Source of the DNA: Candidatus Hydrothermarchaeota archaeon
GTDB lineage: Archaea > Hydrothermarchaeota > Hydrothermarchaeia > Hydrothermarchaeales > BMS3B
Assembly: GCA_015521565.1 (NCBI GenBank)
Contig: WANX01000087.1
Span: 1 to 33,488 of the forward strand
Length of the DNA: 33,488 nt
Direction: 5' to 3'
Made by a program: the position numbers and the translations under genes. This document shows, one piece after another, positions 5,250-17,970 of the stretch. The first letter of the stretch is position 1. The number at the start of each line of letters is the position of its first letter. The notes beneath the pieces were generated by a model. It saw nothing but the letters and a program-made list of their open reading frames with translations, was not told the origin of the DNA and made no database searches.

Positions 5250-5930
5250 ATGAAGGTGGTTGCTGCCTTTGCGGTATTAGTGCTTACTATGGTAATCTCC
5301 GGTCAGGTGTACTCCCAGGAAGAGTACACCAGAATAGAGGGACTGGACCCGCTGGTGAGAAACTTCGGTGGCATGGGCCACAGCGGGAGCAAGTGCGTCT
5401 ACTGCCACGCCTTTCTGATGCCCGATAAGGAGTATGAGGAGAAGTTTCTCCAGGCAGGATGCAGGTGCCACCAGAGCGATGTTGCAAATGGCTACGATGT
5501 GAGGATGAACGATGTCAGAGAAAAGCACTCCTCCAACACCTGCAAGCTGTGTCATGCTGGCACAAAAAATGTTACCAGCCAGATATATCACCAGAAGGTT
5601 CACAGGGCTGTGCCCTGCGTAAAGTGCCACAGGATTCAGAATGTAACCGACTTCAGTGTGAGCAAGCCCGCAAGTATGGAGTGCAAAACCTGTCACAGAT
5701 ACGACATCCACTACACCCACTCGGAGGTTCTCGGGAATGTGTGCAAAATGTGCCACGGTACCAGCTTCGCCTCCAGATTCACAAAAAAAGACCTGGAGAA
5801 GCTAAACCTTGGAGAGGATGTGATAAACAGAACCATAGCTCAAAGGGAGCCGCCGAAACAGGAGGTGAAAAAGTTTGGATTCATTACAATCTCGAGGATC
5901 CTTGCTTTTATCATTGATGCTCTTTTCTAG
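5250..5930 (+). CDS. Multiheme c-type cytochrome, C-terminally membrane-anchored, five CXXCH plus one CXCH
   Basis: Signal peptide; CVYCH, CRCH, CKLCH, CVKCH, CKTCH, CKMCH; C-terminal hydrophobic FGFITISRILAFIIDALF. Confidence 0.85.
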   Translation: MKVVAAFAVLVLTMVISGQVYSQEEYTRIEGLDPLVRNFGGMGHSGSKCVYCHAFLMPDKEYEEKFLQAGCRCHQSDVANGYDVRMNDVREKHSSNTCKLCHAGTKNVTSQIYHQKVHRAVPCVKCHRIQNVTDFSVSKPASMECKTCHRYDIHYTHSEVLGNVCKMCHGTSFASRFTKKDLEKLNLGEDVINRTIAQREPPKQEVKKFGFITISRILAFIIDALF

Positions 5931-7994: not shown

Positions 7995-8597
7995 CTACCT
8001 GCACCACAGCCTCAGCCTGTCCAGAAGCGCCCTTACAATTTGCCTCCTGCCATCACCGTTGGTGGCGTAGGCTATCTCTGTTCGGGGGCTCCACACCCTG
8101 CCAAGACAGCTTTCGCAGAAGAGCAGAGACCTCCTGTCGATCTCCTCCACTGTGCTGGAGAACTTCATATTGCACTCCTCATTGGTGCAGTGCACCATAC
8201 CCAGGGTGTGACCGAGCTCGTGCAGCGCCTCCTTCAGGATGCGCTCCAGGAACAGCCCTGTATCGCATTCCCTGCCGTAGTACGCCTCTCTCAGCCGGAC
8301 TGGCGATATCACCGCCCACCTGCCGCCCAGAGCCGCAAGCCCGAAGATGTAGTCCACCCCGGGCACAGTTATGTCCCTGTTTATCACCGCCAGTACTCTA
8401 TCCGCTCTGCACTGATAATTGGAGAGGCTGTCCAGCAGATGGTCAGCCAGCACCTGCCCCCTGGAGTTCAGCTTCAGAGGGACCTCCGCCGGTGGGGAAA
8501 GCACCACCTCTCCGAACAGCTCACCCAGCCTATCCCTGAGGTAGCTGAGGCACAGCTCCTCCACCACGCCTATTGGAAGGATCTCCAGCACTGCCAC
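7995..8597 (-). CDS. amzA: Archaemetzincin family metalloprotease
   Basis: HELGHTLGMVHCTNEECNMKFSSTVEEIDRRSLLFCESC: HEXXHXXXXXH plus CX4CXM and CXXC Cys pattern of archaemetzincins; GTG start. Confidence 0.93.
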   Translation of the reverse strand: MAVLEILPIGVVEELCLSYLRDRLGELFGEVVLSPPAEVPLKLNSRGQVLADHLLDSLSNYQCRADRVLAVINRDITVPGVDYIFGLAALGGRWAVISPVRLREAYYGRECDTGLFLERILKEALHELGHTLGMVHCTNEECNMKFSSTVEEIDRRSLLFCESCLGRVWSPRTEIAYATNGDGRRQIVRALLDRLRLWCR

Positions 8598-8682
8598 CGT
8601 ATATTATTATGCATTCACTATTTAAAAAATTTTTACATGGGTTTTAAATATTTATCATTCAAAGCGCTAATGCGGATTTCCA

Positions 8683-9969
8683 TCACCGCGTGTTTGAGAA
8701 GCCCCACTCTTCCAGCCCTCCACTGCCATAACCCTCTCTGAGCCTTGCGATTCTCTCCTCCGTAATGGCTATATACTCCCTGAGCTCCTCCTCCAGATTC
8801 TGTATCATCCTGAGCTCTATCCGGGAGCCGCCGCTCCCTTTGCCCAGGGAATCCCTGAATATGCGGTACTTCTGCAGGCTCTTCTCCATTATTCCACGAA
8901 GACTGAAGCCCCCCAGCAGGATAAGCACATCCACATCCCTTCTTTCTGGCTCTGCTATCAGACTTGTGTATCTGAGCAGACCTTCTCCTGCAAGATGGTG
9001 CGCAGCCCATTCCCGGGACACCTCCTCCAGGTCCTCCTGTGTAATCTCTCCACTCTCCACCTTCTCCCGGGGAGCCGCCACTATTATATATGCCATTGTC
9101 CCTGTTTCTGTTTCCAGGGGCACCAGCGGATTTGCCGAGGCGCTTTCCAGCATTGCCCTCAGGCTGAGCACCTCCGGGTCGTTGCCGGTGCTGAGGCAGG
9201 GTGCAAAGTGCACAGTACCTATATTACCCGGCAGCTGGCAGTAGTCGGCTATGTCAATTGTGCCCCTGGAGCCCCTGCTGCTGGGGGCGATCATCATGTG
9301 GATTGTCTTTATAACCTCCTGATTTATCCTGTGGTAGCGCTCCGCCCGCTGACCTTTTTTTATTCCCAGTACCCTCTCCACCTGGGAGTTGTCAACCAGT
9401 ATAACCAGCGCTGCATTCTGCTCACCATTATAGCGCAGCAGTCTTGCGAGACCGCACACGGCATTAAAATGCCTCTGAGGCGCCTCAAAGTCGTAGGGCA
9501 GTATTCCCATGGCCAGGAAATTGTTTATTCTTTCCAGTCCCTCCCCCGGGTCCCTTCTGACTCTGTGCACAATATACGGCAGCGACCCGTTACCTGTACC
9601 ACCCCCCAGGGTGGTTACTCCGAGCAGCACATCATTTCTCCTGAGCCCCAGGGCGGCGATATACCTCCTGATGCTGTCGTAGTCGGCCATTGCCTCCCTC
9701 TCCCCCAGTATCCAGTTGTTGCCTGCGCCGCTCGGGGTCCTTCCGAAGATGCATACCCGCCTTTTCCTTATCTCCTGGAACACTTCCCTGAGCCCGGGCT
9801 CCGACTCAAACACCTGCTCCAGCGGAGCCTCCGGCTTAACGTCCGCGGGTGTTGTATTCAGCAGGAGTACCCTGTCGCCGATAGCCGGGGTCCTGTACTT
9901 TGCATAGTACAGAAAGGCTATTCGATTGGCACCCTGTCCGCTTGCTATTATACCCCATCTCGTATGCAT
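8683..9969 (-). CDS. Tubulin/FtsZ-superfamily GTPase-like protein (divergent)
   Basis: 428 aa; N-terminal GQGANRIA; LGGGTGNGSLPYIV tubulin/FtsZ signature; VILVDNSQV; RINQEV; GTIDIADY (T7-like acidic motif). Confidence 0.85.
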   Translation of the reverse strand: MHTRWGIIASGQGANRIAFLYYAKYRTPAIGDRVLLLNTTPADVKPEAPLEQVFESEPGLREVFQEIRKRRVCIFGRTPSGAGNNWILGEREAMADYDSIRRYIAALGLRRNDVLLGVTTLGGGTGNGSLPYIVHRVRRDPGEGLERINNFLAMGILPYDFEAPQRHFNAVCGLARLLRYNGEQNAALVILVDNSQVERVLGIKKGQRAERYHRINQEVIKTIHMMIAPSSRGSRGTIDIADYCQLPGNIGTVHFAPCLSTGNDPEVLSLRAMLESASANPLVPLETETGTMAYIIVAAPREKVESGEITQEDLEEVSREWAAHHLAGEGLLRYTSLIAEPERRDVDVLILLGGFSLRGIMEKSLQKYRIFRDSLGKGSGGSRIELRMIQNLEEELREYIAITEERIARLREGYGSGGLEEWGFSNTR

Positions 9970-9973
9970 CGCA

Positions 9974-11338
9974 TCAGTCCCTCAGCCTGAGTACATTATC
10001 CTCCAGCACAGCCTCTGGATGCTCCCGGGTGTACTGTTTGAGAAACTCCTCCGCGTACCGCACTCCCAGCTCCTCTGCCGACACTTCCCCCTTCTCGGCC
10101 AGTTTGCGGGATATTATCCTTTCCACAGCAGCGTAGCTTCTGGCTATCTTCACAGTTCTGTATCTTCTGTCAAAGTGACTGTGGAGCGTTTCAATTACCT
10201 CAAGCGCATTTTTTGCAAACTCCCGGAACTCCTGTCTGGGGTCAAGCTCCGATATACGTCCGCCCGCACCTGTGCTCTCGGGCGACCTGCCCAGCTCCCT
10301 GAGCTCCTCCTCCAGAGCGGTGATTTCCCTGACGAGTGCTCTGGCAAGCTCCAGGGTTAGCCTCTTCGCCTCCTCCCTGATATCACTGAACTCTGCCAGA
10401 TACCCCGGGTCCGCATAACCCGCTGCCCGCTGTCTGAGCCTCTTCAGCGCCTGCTGCTCCCTATCAAATTCCCTGCAGAACCCGAGAAGCCTGTCAAGGT
10501 AGTCCACCACCTCCTCTCTGGCCCTGAGGAAGGGCTCTCTCAGGTATCCCGAGACCTCGCTCCTCACCCTCAGCAGTCTGTACACCGCCTCCACCCTGTC
10601 TCTCTCCTTTCTAATCCTCTCCAGCTCCTCCCGCAGATGGGAAACCTCTTTTACGCCCTCTGCTGTGCTTATAAGAAATTCAGCCTCCCTCAGGCACCTG
10701 TCCATCAGCCTGAGGAATTCCTCTTCGGCGCGCCTGTGCTTCTCTATAAGCTCCGAGAGGCTTGTGGCGGGCATGCTCCCGATTCTCCTGAGCTCTTCGT
10801 ACTCCTGCATTACCGAGAAGCCCCCCTCAGCCAGCATCTGCGCCGCACTCACAAGCTCCCGCAGACGCCGTGCAACCGCCTCGCCGTAGCCTGCCACCAC
10901 CAGCGACTCCAGGCTGCGCAGCTGCTGCTCCACCTTGCGGCTTTCCACTTCTATTGCGGTGAGGGTCATCCTGTCTATTTTCCCCTCATTTATCTCGAAG
11001 TCTCTGCTGAAGAGCCCCCTGGATATGAGCCCCCTCTTTATTCTTGCAAGCTCCTTGAGGAAGGGTTCCACGTCCACCGTCGTGGAGGCGGTCCTGAGGT
11101 TCTCCTCCAGGGACTCCACGGTGCTTTTTATCCTGTTCAGAATCTCAACCTTCAGAAGCGTCACAGTCCTGTCTGTTTTGCTCTTCCACCATGTATACAC
11201 CAGGCTCAGCAGCAGTACGCTCACAATCAAACCCACGGCCACGTAGGACACAAAGGTTATCCCGAAGCTCAGCAGCAGGACCAGGCCTGCTGCCAGTGTT
11301 CCGAGCACCACCAGAGCAGTTACCACATACTCGTTCAT
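9974..11338 (-). CDS. Membrane-anchored coiled-coil protein
   Basis: 454 aa; two N-terminal TM helices, then about 390 aa of charged, mostly helical/coiled-coil sequence; flanked by the two tubulin/FtsZ-like genes. Confidence 0.8.
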   Translation of the reverse strand: MNEYVVTALVVLGTLAAGLVLLLSFGITFVSYVAVGLIVSVLLLSLVYTWWKSKTDRTVTLLKVEILNRIKSTVESLEENLRTASTTVDVEPFLKELARIKRGLISRGLFSRDFEINEGKIDRMTLTAIEVESRKVEQQLRSLESLVVAGYGEAVARRLRELVSAAQMLAEGGFSVMQEYEELRRIGSMPATSLSELIEKHRRAEEEFLRLMDRCLREAEFLISTAEGVKEVSHLREELERIRKERDRVEAVYRLLRVRSEVSGYLREPFLRAREEVVDYLDRLLGFCREFDREQQALKRLRQRAAGYADPGYLAEFSDIREEAKRLTLELARALVREITALEEELRELGRSPESTGAGGRISELDPRQEFREFAKNALEVIETLHSHFDRRYRTVKIARSYAAVERIISRKLAEKGEVSAEELGVRYAEEFLKQYTREHPEAVLEDNVLRLRD

Positions 11339-12534
11339 ACACCCGCCTCGCTTTCCAGGAAGTCCTTCTCGTACTCCTCCAGGACCCTGAGGGAGATGTC
11401 CTTGTACTGGCTCGCCAGCTGGCTCAGCGTCCTGAGCCTGGATATCTGATTCGGGCGGTAGGTTAGCAGAACCGTGGCCGTGGCCAGGTTGCGCTTCGTC
11501 AGGGCCACGCCGAAGTGGGTCTCACCCAGGCGGGAGTGCTCCTCCATCACCTGCTTTGCCATGCTGGTGTTGATTCTTCCGCGCTTTGTGAGGTACACCG
11601 GCGGGATGCGGAGCAGCACGAGGTTCTTCTCCGCGTGTTCCGGTCTCAGCTCCGCCACAGTGAGCTTCATAAAGCTCCTGTACAGCAGGGAAATCACATC
11701 TATCTCGCGGTATCCTCCGAAGGGGAAGATGTAGTGCAGGAAGTTCCTGGTCCTCTCCGAGGCTCTTCCCAGGGCAGCGAAACCCGGGCGGGTGCGCTTC
11801 CCGAAGGAGAAGCTGGTGGCCGCTATCATGTCCTTCAGGTCTATCACAGGGGCATAGCCCTCGTACTGCGACGGGTCTACGCGCTCTATCACGGTGCCTA
11901 TGAGTATGTCCCGGATGCTTCTGGCCACATACTCGTTGTACCTCTGGAACAGGCTCTCGGCACTCTCCGCATACGCAAGTCTCTGATTGTCCACCAGGAT
12001 AACCGAGTCCACATGCTCTATCAGCACATTCAGACTCTCAACGGCATTTTTCGCTGTGAGTCCGCCTTCGTGGGTCGCGGGAAGGACAACTATGGCAATA
12101 ACCGGGATGCCCATTTCCCTGAGAACCCCTGCCACCACGGGCCCTGCTCCGCTGCCAGTGCCTCCGCCCAGGGCAAAGGCCACAAAGGCAACCGGCACGC
12201 CTATACCGGAGCTCTCATCCACCTTTACCCTATCTGCAATTATCTCCCTCAGATTGTCCCTGAAGCGCAGGGCATCCTCCTCCGCCTTACTGCGGTTCTT
12301 CCCGTAGCCACCGCTCACAAAGTGCTCAAATCCCGTCATTGTTCCCGGTATAAATCCCCTGTCCCTGGACATTCCAACCCAGTGCTCTCTCCCCAGGTTC
12401 TTCAGAGTCTGCAGGTCGAGGGTCGCAGAATTAATCGCCACCGGCACAGCTATCCTGAACATCACTTCATCGTAAAAAGCAGCATCGATTATCGCTCCAC
12501 CGCACTGTCCAACGCCCACAAACAGGTATGGCAT
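11335..12534 (-). CDS. Tubulin/FtsZ-superfamily GTPase-like protein (FtsZ/CetZ-like)
   Basis: 399 aa; MPYLFVGVGQCGGAIIDAAF; ALGGGTGSGAGPVVAGVLREMG; PATHEGG; VILVDNQRL; LFQRYNEYV; PVIDLKDM (T7-like). 4-bp ATGA-type overlap with the downstream coiled-coil gene. Confidence 0.9.
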   Translation of the reverse strand: MPYLFVGVGQCGGAIIDAAFYDEVMFRIAVPVAINSATLDLQTLKNLGREHWVGMSRDRGFIPGTMTGFEHFVSGGYGKNRSKAEEDALRFRDNLREIIADRVKVDESSGIGVPVAFVAFALGGGTGSGAGPVVAGVLREMGIPVIAIVVLPATHEGGLTAKNAVESLNVLIEHVDSVILVDNQRLAYAESAESLFQRYNEYVARSIRDILIGTVIERVDPSQYEGYAPVIDLKDMIAATSFSFGKRTRPGFAALGRASERTRNFLHYIFPFGGYREIDVISLLYRSFMKLTVAELRPEHAEKNLVLLRIPPVYLTKRGRINTSMAKQVMEEHSRLGETHFGVALTKRNLATATVLLTYRPNQISRLRTLSQLASQYKDISLRVLEEYEKDFLESEAGV

Positions 12535-12599
12535 TCCACCGGACCTCAGAGACCAGGCTTTTATATTTAATTACCAAGGTCAATATAAAACATTACTGC
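12535..12599. promoter_or_regulatory. Compact bidirectional promoter region between the GTPase operon and the envelope operon
   Basis: 65 bp containing ttttatatttaa and caatataaaaca TATA-like stretches between divergent start codons (12534 minus, 12600 plus). Confidence 0.5.
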
Positions 12600-13547
12600 A
12601 TGAGCCGCGGGCTTCTGCTCCTCTTCTCAGCGCTTCTGCTGCTCCCTGCGGCAGAGGCTCAGGACTGTACTTCAGTACTCACAGAGCTCCGGGGCTTTAC
12701 CTCCCCTCTGTTCGCCTCACATTCGGAGTTTGTGCAGGTAAAGCAGGATGTGCTCCTGCTCCTCTACTCCAGGGAGCGCGCTGTGTGCAGCACTGCACTC
12801 ACGAACTTTGCTTCCAGGACGCTTGAGTACCTCAAAACCATGGATGCATCATTTGTTCTGCTGAGCTCTTCAGAGACGGAAAAGCACAGGGAGGGGGTGG
12901 AGAGGGCGATTGAGGCGGAGGAGATAATACTGGAAATGGAGTCACTTGCCGCCGAGCTTGGGCCAGTGGCGGGGGATGCTGTTTTTGCGGCTGAGCAGGG
13001 CAGGAGAAGTCTTCTTTTGGCCAGTGGCATGTTCTTCGAAAGACGTGCGGAGGAGGCGAAAAGCACGCGGGAGAGACTGGAGCTGCTGGAGCTTGCCATT
13101 CTCAGCTACGGAGCCGCAGATGCGCTTCAGGCGAAGAACCTTGCGGTAAGGAGACAGAACCTGGAGGAGAGGTACACCTCCGACATGGAGAAAGCCTCTC
13201 GCTACCTGGATTCGGCTGTTTCAGGGCTCAGAATTGCGGAAGGGCTTTCCACATCTTTTCCCGGTTTCATAGACGCCTACGGTCTTGCCAGGGACGCGAT
13301 TGCGGAGCTCAGGAGGGCGCAGGAGATTTACGCACTCCACAGCGAAAAGGAGAAGCTGATACAGGTGGAAGAGAGCCTCTCCAGAGCCAGGGAGATCTAC
13401 AGCGTTACCCGCAACAGAATTCTTCTTCTGTTCGGTGTCCTATCCGCAGTACTTACGTCGCTGGCGGTGTACATTCAGAGCAGAATTTTGAGCTGGGAAA
13501 AGGACAGCTACGACTGCAGCCTGGGCAATGAGCTGGTGGGTGACTGA
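12600..13547 (+). CDS. Secreted helical-ectodomain protein with C-terminal TM
   Basis: MSRGLLLLFSALLLLPAAEAQDC signal peptide; long helical region; TM RILLLFGVLSAVLTSLAVYI near the C-terminus. The track ORF begins at 12528, but the in-frame ATG at 12600 gives a proper signal peptide. Confidence 0.75.
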   Translation: MSRGLLLLFSALLLLPAAEAQDCTSVLTELRGFTSPLFASHSEFVQVKQDVLLLLYSRERAVCSTALTNFASRTLEYLKTMDASFVLLSSSETEKHREGVERAIEAEEIILEMESLAAELGPVAGDAVFAAEQGRRSLLLASGMFFERRAEEAKSTRERLELLELAILSYGAADALQAKNLAVRRQNLEERYTSDMEKASRYLDSAVSGLRIAEGLSTSFPGFIDAYGLARDAIAELRRAQEIYALHSEKEKLIQVEESLSRAREIYSVTRNRILLLFGVLSAVLTSLAVYIQSRILSWEKDSYDCSLGNELVGD

Positions 13548-13548
13548 A

Positions 13549-15564
13549 ATGCGCTGGTATGCCGTGCTTCTCCTGCCACTGGTGCTGCTTCCTCCCGCGG
13601 CGGCGCAGGTAGAGGCGGGGTTTATCTACACCGACGTGGACTTCTATTTCAACGCTCCCAGAGACCAGGTGGACAGGTTCGAGGTAAATCTCACACTTAT
13701 GCTGTACAACTTTAACAATCAAAGCGCCGCCCTTGTGTCCGACCTGAAGGCAGAGCTTGACGGAGAGGCAGCACAGAGGGGAGTCACAGTCTCCCTGGAG
13801 AAGAGCTATGTGCGGGTGGAGCCGGAAGATTCTGCCTACGTCAGAATCACCTTTATGGCTCCGTCTTCGATGGCGGAGGGCAGCTACGATGCGGAGCTCA
13901 CCGTCACTGGAAACTACACCTACGTGGGCGGAGGAGGCAGCTATCTGCTTCTCAACCAGTTTTATATAAGTGTAAATGTGGAGCATCCACCGCCCACGCT
14001 GTCCGCAGTCTGGGACCTGGCAGACTGGGGCAGGCTGCGCGCCGGGCAGAGCTTTGAGCGCACCCTCACTGTGAGGGAGGTTTTCGGCTATGCGGCGGCT
14101 GAAAACATATCGGTTTATCTCTCCATTACCGGTCCTGCGGAGCTGAACTACACGCCGCTGCTTGGTGAGGTGCCCGCCGGTGGCTCCAGGCGGCTGTCTG
14201 TGGCGGTGAGGGTGCCGGAGAGAAACCTGAAACCCGGGGATTACAGCGTTGTACCCCGTTTTGTGAAGCCGTCCGATGTGGATGTGGCGCAGCTGCAGAG
14301 TGCGAACTACACCATCCCGGAGCCCGTGATGGCAGTATCCACCACTGCCCTGGACTTCGGGAAGATTACCTTTGAGGCCGGCAGGGACACCTCCACCAGG
14401 AGCATAAGCGTGAACGAGACCGGCGGCTATACTCCCATAGAGGGGCTTGAGGTGATTCTTGAGGAGGGAGAGGAAGGCTGGATATCTGTGTCAGGCGCTG
14501 ACTACGTCCCCCCGGGCGGGAGCATCCCCCTGAACTTCTCCCTGGCACTGCCTCCTGATGCAAGCCTTGGAAAAAAGAGCTGGGTGTTCGTGCTGAAAGG
14601 CAGGTATGCGGGCAGCCTGCGTCTGGAGGCCAGCGCCACTGTTTACTTTCCAGGTCTTGAGGATGCGGAGCGCAGGCTGCAAACTCTGGAGGAGCCGGAG
14701 TACACGCAGGTGCTCGCCAGTCTCCGGCAGCTCATATCCGCCTCAAAGGAGGTGACGGAGCTCAGGGAGATAGCCATGGTCATGGCGGTGTACAGCGGTG
14801 TTGTGGCCTTTGTTGAGAGCTTCTCCGGGCTCGAGGAGCAGCCACTGGAGGAGAAGGTGGATGTTCTCCTGCTTACCAGGAGCAGTCTCAGCAGGGCGAA
14901 AACAGGTGCGGCCTCCCTCCAGGATGGAGAGCTCAGAAGTCTGGCCATTCCGGCGGTTGAGGCGCTGGAGGCAGTTTGGGAGCAGCAGGCAGGTGCGGTG
15001 GTTGCAGCCCTGGAGGAGCGTCTGAAGGAGGAGAGGGACTACAGGAGCGCTGCTCTGGACAGCAGGAGACTGAGCACACTGTACTCCCTTCTCGGAGATG
15101 CGCAAAAGGCGGAGAGTTACTCATCAAAACAGGAGCAGCTGGAGAGGGCCTACTATGATGCGCTCAGAAAGGCGGCAGAGCTTCTCAGGCGTTCCGAGGA
15201 GGAGGTTTCGCAGGCAAAAATGCTGACACTGAATTTGAAGGAAGCCTCCTTTGTGCTCAACCCCTTCCACTATGAGGAGGTGGTGAGCCGGTACGAGAGG
15301 GCGATATCCCTGGCGGAGGAGGCGATTGGTGAGCTGGAGAAGGCCGGTGAGGTTGAGGAGGCACAGCTTGTGGCATCGCGGGTGGAGGAGCTGTCCATGG
15401 CAAAGCGGGGTATAGAGAGAAGTTTCACCGCCTACCTTGGACTCCTAACCGCCGCCTTTCTGTGGTTTGTGGCCAGGGTTACTCTGGGCATGCTTCGCTG
15501 GATGCGAGACTCTGAAATCCTGGCCGAGGGGGATGTGGTGCTGGGCGGGAAGACCGAACTATAG
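13549..15564 (+). CDS. Envelope protein: beta-sandwich ectodomain, helical region, C-terminal TM
   Basis: About 671 aa from ATG 13549; signal peptide MRWYAVLLLPLVLLPPAAAQ; Ig/Fn3-like repeats (PVMAVSTTALDFGKITFEAGRDTSTRSISVNE); helical region; TM YLGLLTAAFLWFVARVTLGML. Confidence 0.75.
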   Translation: MRWYAVLLLPLVLLPPAAAQVEAGFIYTDVDFYFNAPRDQVDRFEVNLTLMLYNFNNQSAALVSDLKAELDGEAAQRGVTVSLEKSYVRVEPEDSAYVRITFMAPSSMAEGSYDAELTVTGNYTYVGGGGSYLLLNQFYISVNVEHPPPTLSAVWDLADWGRLRAGQSFERTLTVREVFGYAAAENISVYLSITGPAELNYTPLLGEVPAGGSRRLSVAVRVPERNLKPGDYSVVPRFVKPSDVDVAQLQSANYTIPEPVMAVSTTALDFGKITFEAGRDTSTRSISVNETGGYTPIEGLEVILEEGEEGWISVSGADYVPPGGSIPLNFSLALPPDASLGKKSWVFVLKGRYAGSLRLEASATVYFPGLEDAERRLQTLEEPEYTQVLASLRQLISASKEVTELREIAMVMAVYSGVVAFVESFSGLEEQPLEEKVDVLLLTRSSLSRAKTGAASLQDGELRSLAIPAVEALEAVWEQQAGAVVAALEERLKEERDYRSAALDSRRLSTLYSLLGDAQKAESYSSKQEQLERAYYDALRKAAELLRRSEEEVSQAKMLTLNLKEASFVLNPFHYEEVVSRYERAISLAEEAIGELEKAGEVEEAQLVASRVEELSMAKRGIERSFTAYLGLLTAAFLWFVARVTLGMLRWMRDSEILAEGDVVLGGKTEL

Positions 15565-17970
15565 CAGCGTCCTCCTCAGCCTCATGAGGAGCTCCTCCCT
15601 CTCCAGCATCTCAATGGTGCACTCCAGCAGGTATGCAGCGTAGGCGCAGAGGGCTGCTGCCTCACCTTCCGCAGCCTCCTCGGCCCTCTCCACAAGCAGT
15701 CGGGCGACCTTCCACAGGGAGGCTGGCGGGTGCACAGATACCTCACCCACCATGGCGGTAAGCCTTCTGTCCACCTTCCCGAGCTTTTCCTTTACCCTGC
15801 CCCACGGGTTCTCGGCTCCGAGCAGCTCCGCGGCTGCCGTGTAATCGAAGGGCGGGGCTTCACAGCCGCCTGCATCGCGCAGCTGCGACCTGTAGAGGGC
15901 GACATTCTTCCAGTCCTGCATCGCCTCGCAGAGCAGAGATACAGTGTACTCTGCAGCATCAACGGCGCCGCTTCCCGGCCGGGGGTTTCTGGCAAGAGCT
16001 GCTGCACCGTCTATAATCTGGTGAGCAGCCCCTCTGAAAAAACCGGGAAGACATGGGTCGTACCCTGAGATGCGCCGGTGGGCTTCATCCACCCTTCTGC
16101 GCAGCTCCTCCAGGCGTTCCTCGACCCCGGGTGTAAGTGTGCGCTCCGGTGTTAGTTCAACCGCCAGCTCCTCCTGCCCTGGATGAATCACCACCTCCGC
16201 GGGGACAAATCCCTCCTTCTCAATCCTCAGACTCCTCCTGCCAGTGACACGCAGATGTGCCTCTCCCGAGCTGTCGGTGACGGCCTTTCTATCACCTGCC
16301 TCAACCACCGCTCCCCCGAGGGGCGCACCCTCAGTGCTCGTGACTTTCACCCTGAGCTCTGAGGCCCTCTCTACCCGGGACTTGGCATCCCGTGTGCGCC
16401 TCAGAAGCACAGCCACAATTACCAGCACTCCTGCCACAAGCACACCCGCCAGGGCCTTCCACGGCTTCAGCGGTTTCTCACGCAGGAGGGGTATGCTGAT
16501 GACCTCCTTTCCTGAAAGCACCAGGAGTGCTGCCCCATCCCGTGCCATGGCGATGTGGTGCACCCCACCGGGGGGGCTTAGCACCCACAGGGGCTCACCA
16601 CTCTGCGCTGTGTAGAGGACCACATCCTCCGGCGAGGCCACGGCCAGGTATTTATCAGAGGCCTCCACCATGCTTGCGTTGTGCCTGAGGGTCCTGTTCC
16701 AGAGAAGCCTGCCCCCGGAAAAGGCGCGTAGCTCGTTGTCAATCAGCAGGAGGAGCAGCCTGCTGTTAATGGCCATGTCCGCGGGCGGCGCTTCCAGAGT
16801 GAGGTTCCAGAGAAGGCTTCCGTTGTAGGAGAGCAGCTGCACTCCAGAGCGCCCTGCCACCGCTATACCGGCTTCCGACATATCCAGCAGTGCGGATGAG
16901 ATTCCGGACTGCTTGCTCCACAGCAGTGCGCCGGTGGTGTTGAAAAGGTAAACCTCACCCCCAGCGAGCACGGCAATTTTATCTGATGATGAAGCGATGA
17001 GCTGTGCCTCAGCAGGCAGGGTAACGTTCCAGAGCTGCTGGGTTCCCCTGTAGAAACTCAGCAGCCTGCCCTGAGCCAGGGCAAAGCCGCTGTCGCCCGC
17101 CGCAATCAGAGAAGGTGCGGCGGTTTTCAGCTCTGCTATCATCTCTCCCGATGGTGATAGCAGGTATAGCTTCCCCTCCGACACCGCAACAATTCCGTCT
17201 GCATACCTCTCCACCCCCCGGACACTTTCAGGCAGATTAATCACCAGCTGCCCTGGTATTGATGGCGAGCCGTTCACCAGCTCCACCTCCACCTGTGCAG
17301 CGGCGCTGCTGTTTGCGAGGCTGATGTTAACTCCTATAGAGTACCTCCCGGGTGGCAGACCGGAGGTATCCCAGATGTAGGGCAGGGTTCTTCCCATCAG
17401 GGTGTCGTTTATGTAGAGCGCCACCTCTGCGCCTGGAGTGTGCAGGGCTCTTATCTCCACGGGTTCGCCCCTGCCGAAGACCTTTCCCCTGGAAGGGCTG
17501 AGTATCTCCACATGCACCGCAGGTGAGGCATTGCTCACCACCAGCCGTGACAAAGCGTATGCAGTGGCACAACCCTCCCTGAAGCTGAAAACAGTCTTCA
17601 GCGTGTAGCTCCCCGCACGCTCTGGTGCGAAGAAGCCGAACTCGGAGATTACACTCTGCCCCGGGATTGCCCTCCCGGTGTATAGCTGTGCCAGCTCGCC
17701 ATCGCTCCAGTCTCCTGTGAGTGCGACCTCAACGGTACCTGAAGCGAGCTCTTCAAACCGCCAGCCGACGGTGCCTCTAATGTACTGCAGCGGAGCCGCG
17801 CTCAGGCTGCTCTGCACACCCTCTGCCCCCGCATTCAGGTCGATGGCGGAAAGGGTAACCAGCTCAGTTTCTCCTCCCGGGGTCAGATAGTACACCTTCT
17901 CGGGACACGACGCCTCCAGCTCAGGCAGAAGCAGGAACAGCAGCATCAGAAGGGGCAGCACACGGTGCAT
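15559..17970 (-). CDS. Envelope protein with beta-propeller (PQQ-like) ectodomain, TM, and cytoplasmic carboxypeptidase-regulatory-like plus helical tail
   Basis: 803 aa; signal peptide; repeats such as LLWSKQSGISSALLDMSEAGIAVAGRSGVQLLSYNGSLLWNLTL; TM ALAGVLVAGVLVIVAVLLRRTRD; then LRVKVTSTEGAPLGGAVVEAGDRKAVTDSSGEAHLRV... Confidence 0.75.
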   Translation of the reverse strand: MHRVLPLLMLLFLLLPELEASCPEKVYYLTPGGETELVTLSAIDLNAGAEGVQSSLSAAPLQYIRGTVGWRFEELASGTVEVALTGDWSDGELAQLYTGRAIPGQSVISEFGFFAPERAGSYTLKTVFSFREGCATAYALSRLVVSNASPAVHVEILSPSRGKVFGRGEPVEIRALHTPGAEVALYINDTLMGRTLPYIWDTSGLPPGRYSIGVNISLANSSAAAQVEVELVNGSPSIPGQLVINLPESVRGVERYADGIVAVSEGKLYLLSPSGEMIAELKTAAPSLIAAGDSGFALAQGRLLSFYRGTQQLWNVTLPAEAQLIASSSDKIAVLAGGEVYLFNTTGALLWSKQSGISSALLDMSEAGIAVAGRSGVQLLSYNGSLLWNLTLEAPPADMAINSRLLLLLIDNELRAFSGGRLLWNRTLRHNASMVEASDKYLAVASPEDVVLYTAQSGEPLWVLSPPGGVHHIAMARDGAALLVLSGKEVISIPLLREKPLKPWKALAGVLVAGVLVIVAVLLRRTRDAKSRVERASELRVKVTSTEGAPLGGAVVEAGDRKAVTDSSGEAHLRVTGRRSLRIEKEGFVPAEVVIHPGQEELAVELTPERTLTPGVEERLEELRRRVDEAHRRISGYDPCLPGFFRGAAHQIIDGAAALARNPRPGSGAVDAAEYTVSLLCEAMQDWKNVALYRSQLRDAGGCEAPPFDYTAAAELLGAENPWGRVKEKLGKVDRRLTAMVGEVSVHPPASLWKVARLLVERAEEAAEGEAAALCAYAAYLLECTIEMLEREELLMRLRRTLL

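Follow-up and report, generated by a model that had tools for sequence, protein, structure and literature searches.

The deep-sea archaeon represented by GenBank assembly GCA_015521565.1 (1.7 Mb, 93% complete) encodes, on contig WANX01000087.1 (our contig C87), whose full 33,488 nucleotides form the window analysed here, a block of genes for two tubulin-like proteins (A and B), a membrane rod (CC) and surface proteins with conserved inner tails (D and E), accompanied by a less constant gene, F. The block suggests a cytoskeleton connected across the membrane with the cell surface. Its composition is well supported: A and B fall into two clades of their own, CC is a hairpin-anchored rod, D and E are homologous single-pass proteins, and the genes occupy two divergent operons that are inherited together. 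With moderate confidence we interpret the block as a dedicated trans-envelope, tubulin-type cytoskeletal module of Hydrothermarchaeota in which, we infer, filaments of A dock on the tails of D and E, CC serves as a membrane rod and B as a second GTPase. The host belongs to Hydrothermarchaeota near Candidatus (Ca.) Pyrohabitans, its nearest named relatives being Ca. Pyrohabitans JdFR-16 and JdFR-17, with Ca. Hydrothermarchaeum profundi JdFR-18 more distant.

An initial annotation of the sequence had proposed two different tubulin-superfamily GTPases flanking a coiled-coil protein, and both assignments hold, that of A through PF00091 and that of B through profile comparison and structure prediction. 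The motifs cited for them are present and align with those of FtsZ and CetZ, namely T1 (GVGQCGG in A, ASGQGAN in B), T4 (GGGTGSGAG and GGGTGNGS) and the acidic pair of T7 (VIDLKD and TIDIAD), the T7 acids being invariant in both families (D232/D235 in A, D239/D242 in B). As judged from the alignments, A and B carry intact GTP-binding (T1, T4) and catalytic (T7) loops. A matches PF00091 far beyond chance (83.8 bits, E 2.5e-23; Pfam cut-off 33 bits), and its profile lies closest to CetZ and FtsZ chains among known structures, the best PDB match by sequence being 4b46, a Haloferax CetZ. B reaches 26 bits (E 1.2e-5), which is under the cut-off and renders it invisible to routine annotation. Despite this score, B is by profile and model a secure member of the superfamily, because a profile of 15 B proteins matches the Methanocaldococcus jannaschii FtsZ structure (E 1.5e-9, spanning T3 to T7) and its AlphaFold2 model (mean predicted local distance difference test score (pLDDT) 68.5, moderate confidence) matches CetZ (3zid, E 1.1e-15) as well as FtsZ (1fsz), tubulin and TubZ. 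The matches to CetZ, FtsZ and tubulin cover 360-480 columns at E 1e-15 to 1e-12.

Curated profile cut-offs rule out assignment of A or B to FtsZ, CetZ or FtsZl1. Against the FtsZ equivalog TIGR00065 (cut-off 295.2 bits), A and B scored 76 and 25.7 bits, whereas the FtsZ1 and FtsZ2 that a search of the remaining genome recovered away from the locus scored 446.6 and 410 bits, and both possess FtsZ_C (PF12327). A CetZ with CetZ_C (PF21011, 230 bits) and a SepF are also encoded elsewhere in it. A Pfam search at E 1 found no FtsZ_C, CetZ_C or Tubulin_C in A or B; PF13809 (Tubulin_2) gave 12.1 bits for A (cut-off 27) and no match for B, and both proteins are of single-domain length. In a tree of 58 proteins, with CetZs taken solely from the sampled genomes, A and B, each together with its distant relatives, formed two separate clades (support 100/99 each), which a repeat tree without long branches recovered at 100/100 each. 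A grouped weakly with CetZ in the larger tree (92/77), and the idea of A and B as sister paralogues was neither favoured nor rejected by an approximately unbiased (AU) test (p 0.48). A viral origin was set aside, there being no related locus in IMG/VR and just weak PhuZ-type superfamily matches in PHROGs. By these sequence comparisons, A and B are two previously unclassified clades of the tubulin superfamily, and the distinct archaeal system posited in the initial annotation is the best reading. Its novelty is provisional: the available portions of the literature on archaeal tubulin-type proteins (PMC2875224, PMC9871819, PMC9856176, PMC9723716, PMC7613921) describe FtsZl1 and FtsZl2, CetZ, non-canonical archaeal groups and a Culexarchaeia-type clade, and contain no module resembling A-CC-B-D-E.

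Conservation was assessed across the 23 genomes sampled from the class. A, CC and B are contiguous and in this order in 14 of them, with starts and stops that usually overlap or nearly touch; a fifteenth trio genome (G010) has A and B at contig ends. CC and B are missing from eight of the 23, where matches to A reach FtsZ/CetZ level only. D and E stand next to A, with the divergent A/D arrangement, in the same relatives as the trio, and E occurs in 14 of the 15 trio genomes, missing only from one that is 62% complete, and in none of the eight others. D homologues adjoin the trio in G001-G004, G006, G008, G011, G012, G013 and G017 and lie away from it in G010, G015 and two genomes of another family, f80. 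F is a weaker member of the module: its homologues adjoin E in G001-G004, G012 and G017, and a similar protein adjoins D-E in G015. The conserved locus reaches about position 17970, well past the interval 8683-12534 to which the initial annotation was confined. The gene order it reported is conserved, but the trio is half of a module of five or six genes in two divergent operons, of which D, E and F had been overlooked. Mean pairwise identity is 75% for A, 64% for B and 38% for CC, and A is 68-93% identical across families of the order.

Outside the class, two f80 genomes (G167 and G271) encode A, B, D and E, and CC is present in G167 but went undetected in G271 (87% complete). All of these genes lie on different contigs, with unrelated neighbours around A, B, E and CC. 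Because the genes are unlinked on separate contigs in both genomes, gene order does not explain the association of A, B, D and E. A third lineage (G044) has a relative of A, about 30% identical to the window copy, near a relative of E (hhalign 98%), and a fourth, weaker case (G191) has an A-like protein near an E-like one (hhalign 92%). Searches of these two genomes detected neither B (at E 1e-15) nor CC (at 0.01), and hhalign did not confirm a D homologue in G191; we claim E-type homology alone for both. A second cluster in G167 (contig C41) places an A-like gene beside a D-like one, and further along the contig (locus L147, 5279-10648) a 985-aa FtsZl1-type protein with Tubulin_2 directly adjoins a 772-aa E-like membrane protein, which links E-type anchors to a second tubulin family.

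The AlphaFold2 model of CC (mean pLDDT 89) is all helix (helices 3-25, 27-84 and onward) and supports the N-terminal hydrophobic membrane hairpin and long rod of the initial annotation. No Pfam family, EzrA included, matched CC at E 1, Foldseek against the PDB returned nothing below E 0.37, and EzrA was absent from its sequence and fold matches; sequence matches to apolipoprotein E, designed bundles and spectrin were discarded as apparently unspecific similarity among helical proteins. Mean pairwise identity is 34% in the rod, 68% in the neck and 50% at the C-terminus, and in the f80 CC, too, the neck and C-terminal segment are conserved and the rod evolves fast. Naming CC as the membrane anchor, as originally proposed, is incomplete, since D and E, co-conserved with and next to A, and D with a strongly conserved tail, are better candidates for the docking site than CC alone.

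Signal peptides and hydrophobicity predict outer domains and cytoplasmic tails for D, E and F. Homology between D and the second half of E (hhalign E 6e-11) extends across the membrane helix and tail. The NPCBM_assoc match of E is weak in the window copy and above cut-off in the orthologue at L090, and F exceeds the cut-offs for both PQQ_2 (40 bits) and CarboxypepD_reg (33.5 bits). The tail of D, SWEKDSYDCSLGNELVGD in the window, has 6 of 16 columns invariant, versus at most 4 in any other 16-column segment (permutation 0.0014), and a mean pairwise identity of 61% versus 38% for the outer domain. Similarly, the f80 D homologue is only 26% identical to window D in its outer domain, yet its tail reads WKKAIYDVSLGDEILG where the window has WEKDSYDCSLGNELVG. 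Within a lineage, D and E tails also resemble each other: shuffled sequences did as well in 1 of 2000 trials for G044, 0 of 2000 for the second G167 cluster and 38 of 2000 for the window, numbers that are indicative, the tails having been picked by eye beforehand. We read D and E as presenting similar putative docking peptides to one cytoplasmic partner, most likely A, because A stays near D- or E-type genes.

Coordinates of the module in the window are collected below. The three reading frames of the original prediction are present, A and CC overlapping by 4 bp and CC and B separated by 4 bp in one tight minus-strand operon. D and E diverge from A, and F is convergent to E. The gap between A and D is probably a shared bidirectional promoter, as its composition would allow.

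Table 1. Genes and sequence features of the module, numbered from the first base of the window (ORF, open reading frame; Ig, immunoglobulin)
Feature	Position	Strand	Length	Remarks
Gene A, tubulin-superfamily GTPase, provisionally a new clade	11335..12534	-	399 aa	
Gene A loops	T1 12496-12516; T4 12142-12168; T7 11827-11850	-		T7 with both acidic residues
Gene CC, membrane-hairpin protein with long all-helical rod	9974..11338	-	454 aa	Conserved C-terminal segment (residues about 395-440)
Gene B, divergent tubulin-superfamily GTPase, provisionally a second new clade	8683..9969	-	428 aa	
Gene B loops	T4 9583-9606; T7 9241-9264	-		T7 with both acidic residues
A/D divergent intergenic region	12535..12599		65 bp	AT-rich TATA-like elements; basis: sequence and conserved divergent A/D arrangement
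Gene D, predicted signal peptide, helical outer domain (about 250 aa), one membrane helix, short cytoplasmic tail	12600..13547	+	315 aa	ORF open from 12528
D predicted cytoplasmic tail motif, W-x-x-D-x-Y/H-x-x-x-LGNEL	13494..13535	+		
Gene E, predicted signal peptide, Ig/NEW3-type outer domains, D-homologous helical domain, membrane helix, short tail	13549..15564	+	about 671 aa	ORF open from 13528
Gene F, predicted signal peptide, outer PQQ/BamB-like beta-propeller, membrane helix at about 505, cytoplasmic CarboxypepD_reg and helical domain	15559..17970	-	803 aa	

Elsewhere in the window, an archaemetzincin (peptidase M54) gene lies directly downstream of B (7995-8597), a multihaem cytochrome c7/c3-type protein is encoded at 5250-5930, and positions 1-1517 hold two adjacent minus-strand paralogues, about 38% identical, the complete copy encoding a zinc-ribbon protein that weakly matches SbsC (spectrin-like). 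The host genome also contains a second tubulin cluster (L102, contig C54 of G000, 8354-12132) in which the CetZ gene is joined by two further tubulin-type genes, one of them for a 338-aa product, and by a gene for a 272-aa protein that has a signal peptide and a C-terminal membrane helix. Archaeal tubulins are here again paired with a single-pass surface protein. The observation extends to L100, L106 and L107, with a like cluster in G021 and CetZ with the 338-aa gene in G012 and G001. At L102, L100 and L101 a short acidic-hydrophobic peptide (LLGDIESL, LLEDISPL, DEDIEPLI) frequently forms the C-terminus of the CetZ and 338-aa tubulins and may serve to bind a partner. At L098 and L101 (G020 and G028), a signal-peptide protein directly follows a CetZ-type gene; it has a C-terminal membrane helix in G028, and the G020 copy ends at the contig end.

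The mechanism that we favour would run as follows. A would polymerise on GTP beneath the membrane, and the tails of D and E would capture the filaments, coupling them to the outer surface, probably the surface layer (S-layer). CC, held by its hairpin, would use its conserved C-terminal segment to bridge the filaments or lie along them, in the manner of EzrA or spectrin scaffolds, and B, which is less conserved than A and which distant relatives can do without, might co-assemble with, nucleate, cap or regulate A. The likely job would be to shape or stabilise the cell surface rather than to divide the cell, because FtsZ1, FtsZ2 and SepF are encoded separately and module-less relatives keep their division genes. 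Several observations weigh against this scheme. Alignment with host FtsZ1 indicates that the T7 asparagine of FtsZ is missing from both A and B. The orientation assigned to D and E depends on the signal peptides and hydrophobicity noted above, the tail of E is no more conserved than the rest of E, and the homology of the D-like gene of G044 to D was not confirmed by hhalign. Furthermore, the likeness of D and E tails, again indicative for tails picked by eye, is weaker in f80 (77 of 2000 shuffles as good) and absent in G191 (1230 of 2000), and may in part reflect common descent. Polymerisation of A, GTPase activity, tail binding and localisation are all predictions from sequence.

Among the alternatives, A and B could form an obligate alpha/beta-like heterodimer or a mixed polymer anchored to the membrane by CC, close to the A-B hetero-polymer of the initial annotation. 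The two genes share an operon in every trio genome and both occur in f80 although unlinked there, T4 and T7 are complete in both proteins, and their common clade is not rejected by the AU test. That grouping is not favoured either, however, A is far more conserved than B, and G044 and G191 combine A with an E-type partner where B went undetected. On these grounds the hetero-polymer is not supported, and we regard it as rather unlikely.

A role in an accessory division apparatus, with A and B building specialised FtsZ-type rings alongside the canonical FtsZ/SepF divisome, appears improbable. Superfamily membership, an EzrA-like layout of the membrane rod (PMC5354558) and the presence of SepF and FtsZ1/2 in the same genomes would fit, but neither protein scores as FtsZ or has FtsZ_C, and FtsZ-type genes, in most cases with SepF, persist in relatives that lack the module (G005, G014 and others), which argues that division does not require it. 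We give equally little weight to A and B as non-polymerising GTPase switches that regulate a D/E/F surface complex, for instance its assembly or signalling. The strong link to surface-protein genes and the proposal, in the available text of PMC2875224, that FtsZl1 proteins are membrane-remodelling components perhaps without ordinary filaments both lend it some appeal, yet both families conserve T7, a loop that completes the active site only where filament subunits meet. Very improbable is that A and B are ordinary CetZ or FtsZ paralogues whose neighbourhood was kept by shared ancestry alone: the proximity of A to CetZ/FtsZ structures in profile searches and its weak grouping with CetZ are outweighed by separate A and B clades, by the lack of any CetZ_C or FtsZ_C match where host CetZ reaches 230 bits, and by co-occurrence without synteny in f80.

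If A filaments do dock on D and E, the locus bears on the question of how archaea lacking a rigid wall join their cytoskeleton to the S-layer. It adds two tubulin-superfamily clades and offers candidate partners and a candidate docking peptide, with which the question becomes testable using purified proteins. In the accessible parts of the literature on archaeal tubulin-type proteins, the anchor named for archaeal FtsZ is SepF, and transmembrane partners of such proteins are not described.

The proposed module can be placed among known systems. FtsZ1 and FtsZ2 with SepF share with A and B a GTPase core, T4 and T7 loops and membrane attachment via partner proteins, but possess FtsZ_C and score far higher with TIGR00065. 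CetZ is likewise an archaeal protein of tubulin-superfamily fold distinct from FtsZ, with proposed cell-surface and shape roles; unlike A and B it has CetZ_C, A has a longer stretch before T7, and A and B are in fixed association with CC, D and E. FtsZl1 (PF13809; Makarova and Koonin 2010), too, is a divergent tubulin family with a proposed membrane-remodelling role and ties to membrane genes. It differs in its fused coiled coil and in its partners, no vWA protein or OmpA-type gene being present here, and A and B keep a full T7. FtsZl2, compared by description alone, is proteobacterial and carries a C-terminal alpha/beta extension of about 300 aa for which A and B are too short. The Culexarchaeia-type clade, Halo.Tub and Asg.Tub, as described in the portions available of PMC9723716 and PMC9871819, are also archaeal, outside FtsZ and CetZ, and near unknown and coiled-coil genes; by those descriptions alone, no module of two tubulins with paired surface proteins is reported for them. 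EzrA, the spectrin-like, FtsZ-associated rod of Firmicutes (PMC5354558), parallels CC in layout only, with an N-terminal membrane anchor and a long cytoplasmic helical rod that acts, in CC putatively, with a tubulin homologue; the anchor of CC is a two-helix hairpin and no sequence or fold relation was found, so the likeness is one of analogy. Tentatively, the two new tubulin families may form filaments clamped through the membrane to surface proteins by matched, receptor-like D and E tails, with a core of A and E-type partners common to several archaeal lineages. Such clamped filaments would be a prokaryotic analogue of the integrins and spectrin that link eukaryotic cytoskeletons to the outside.

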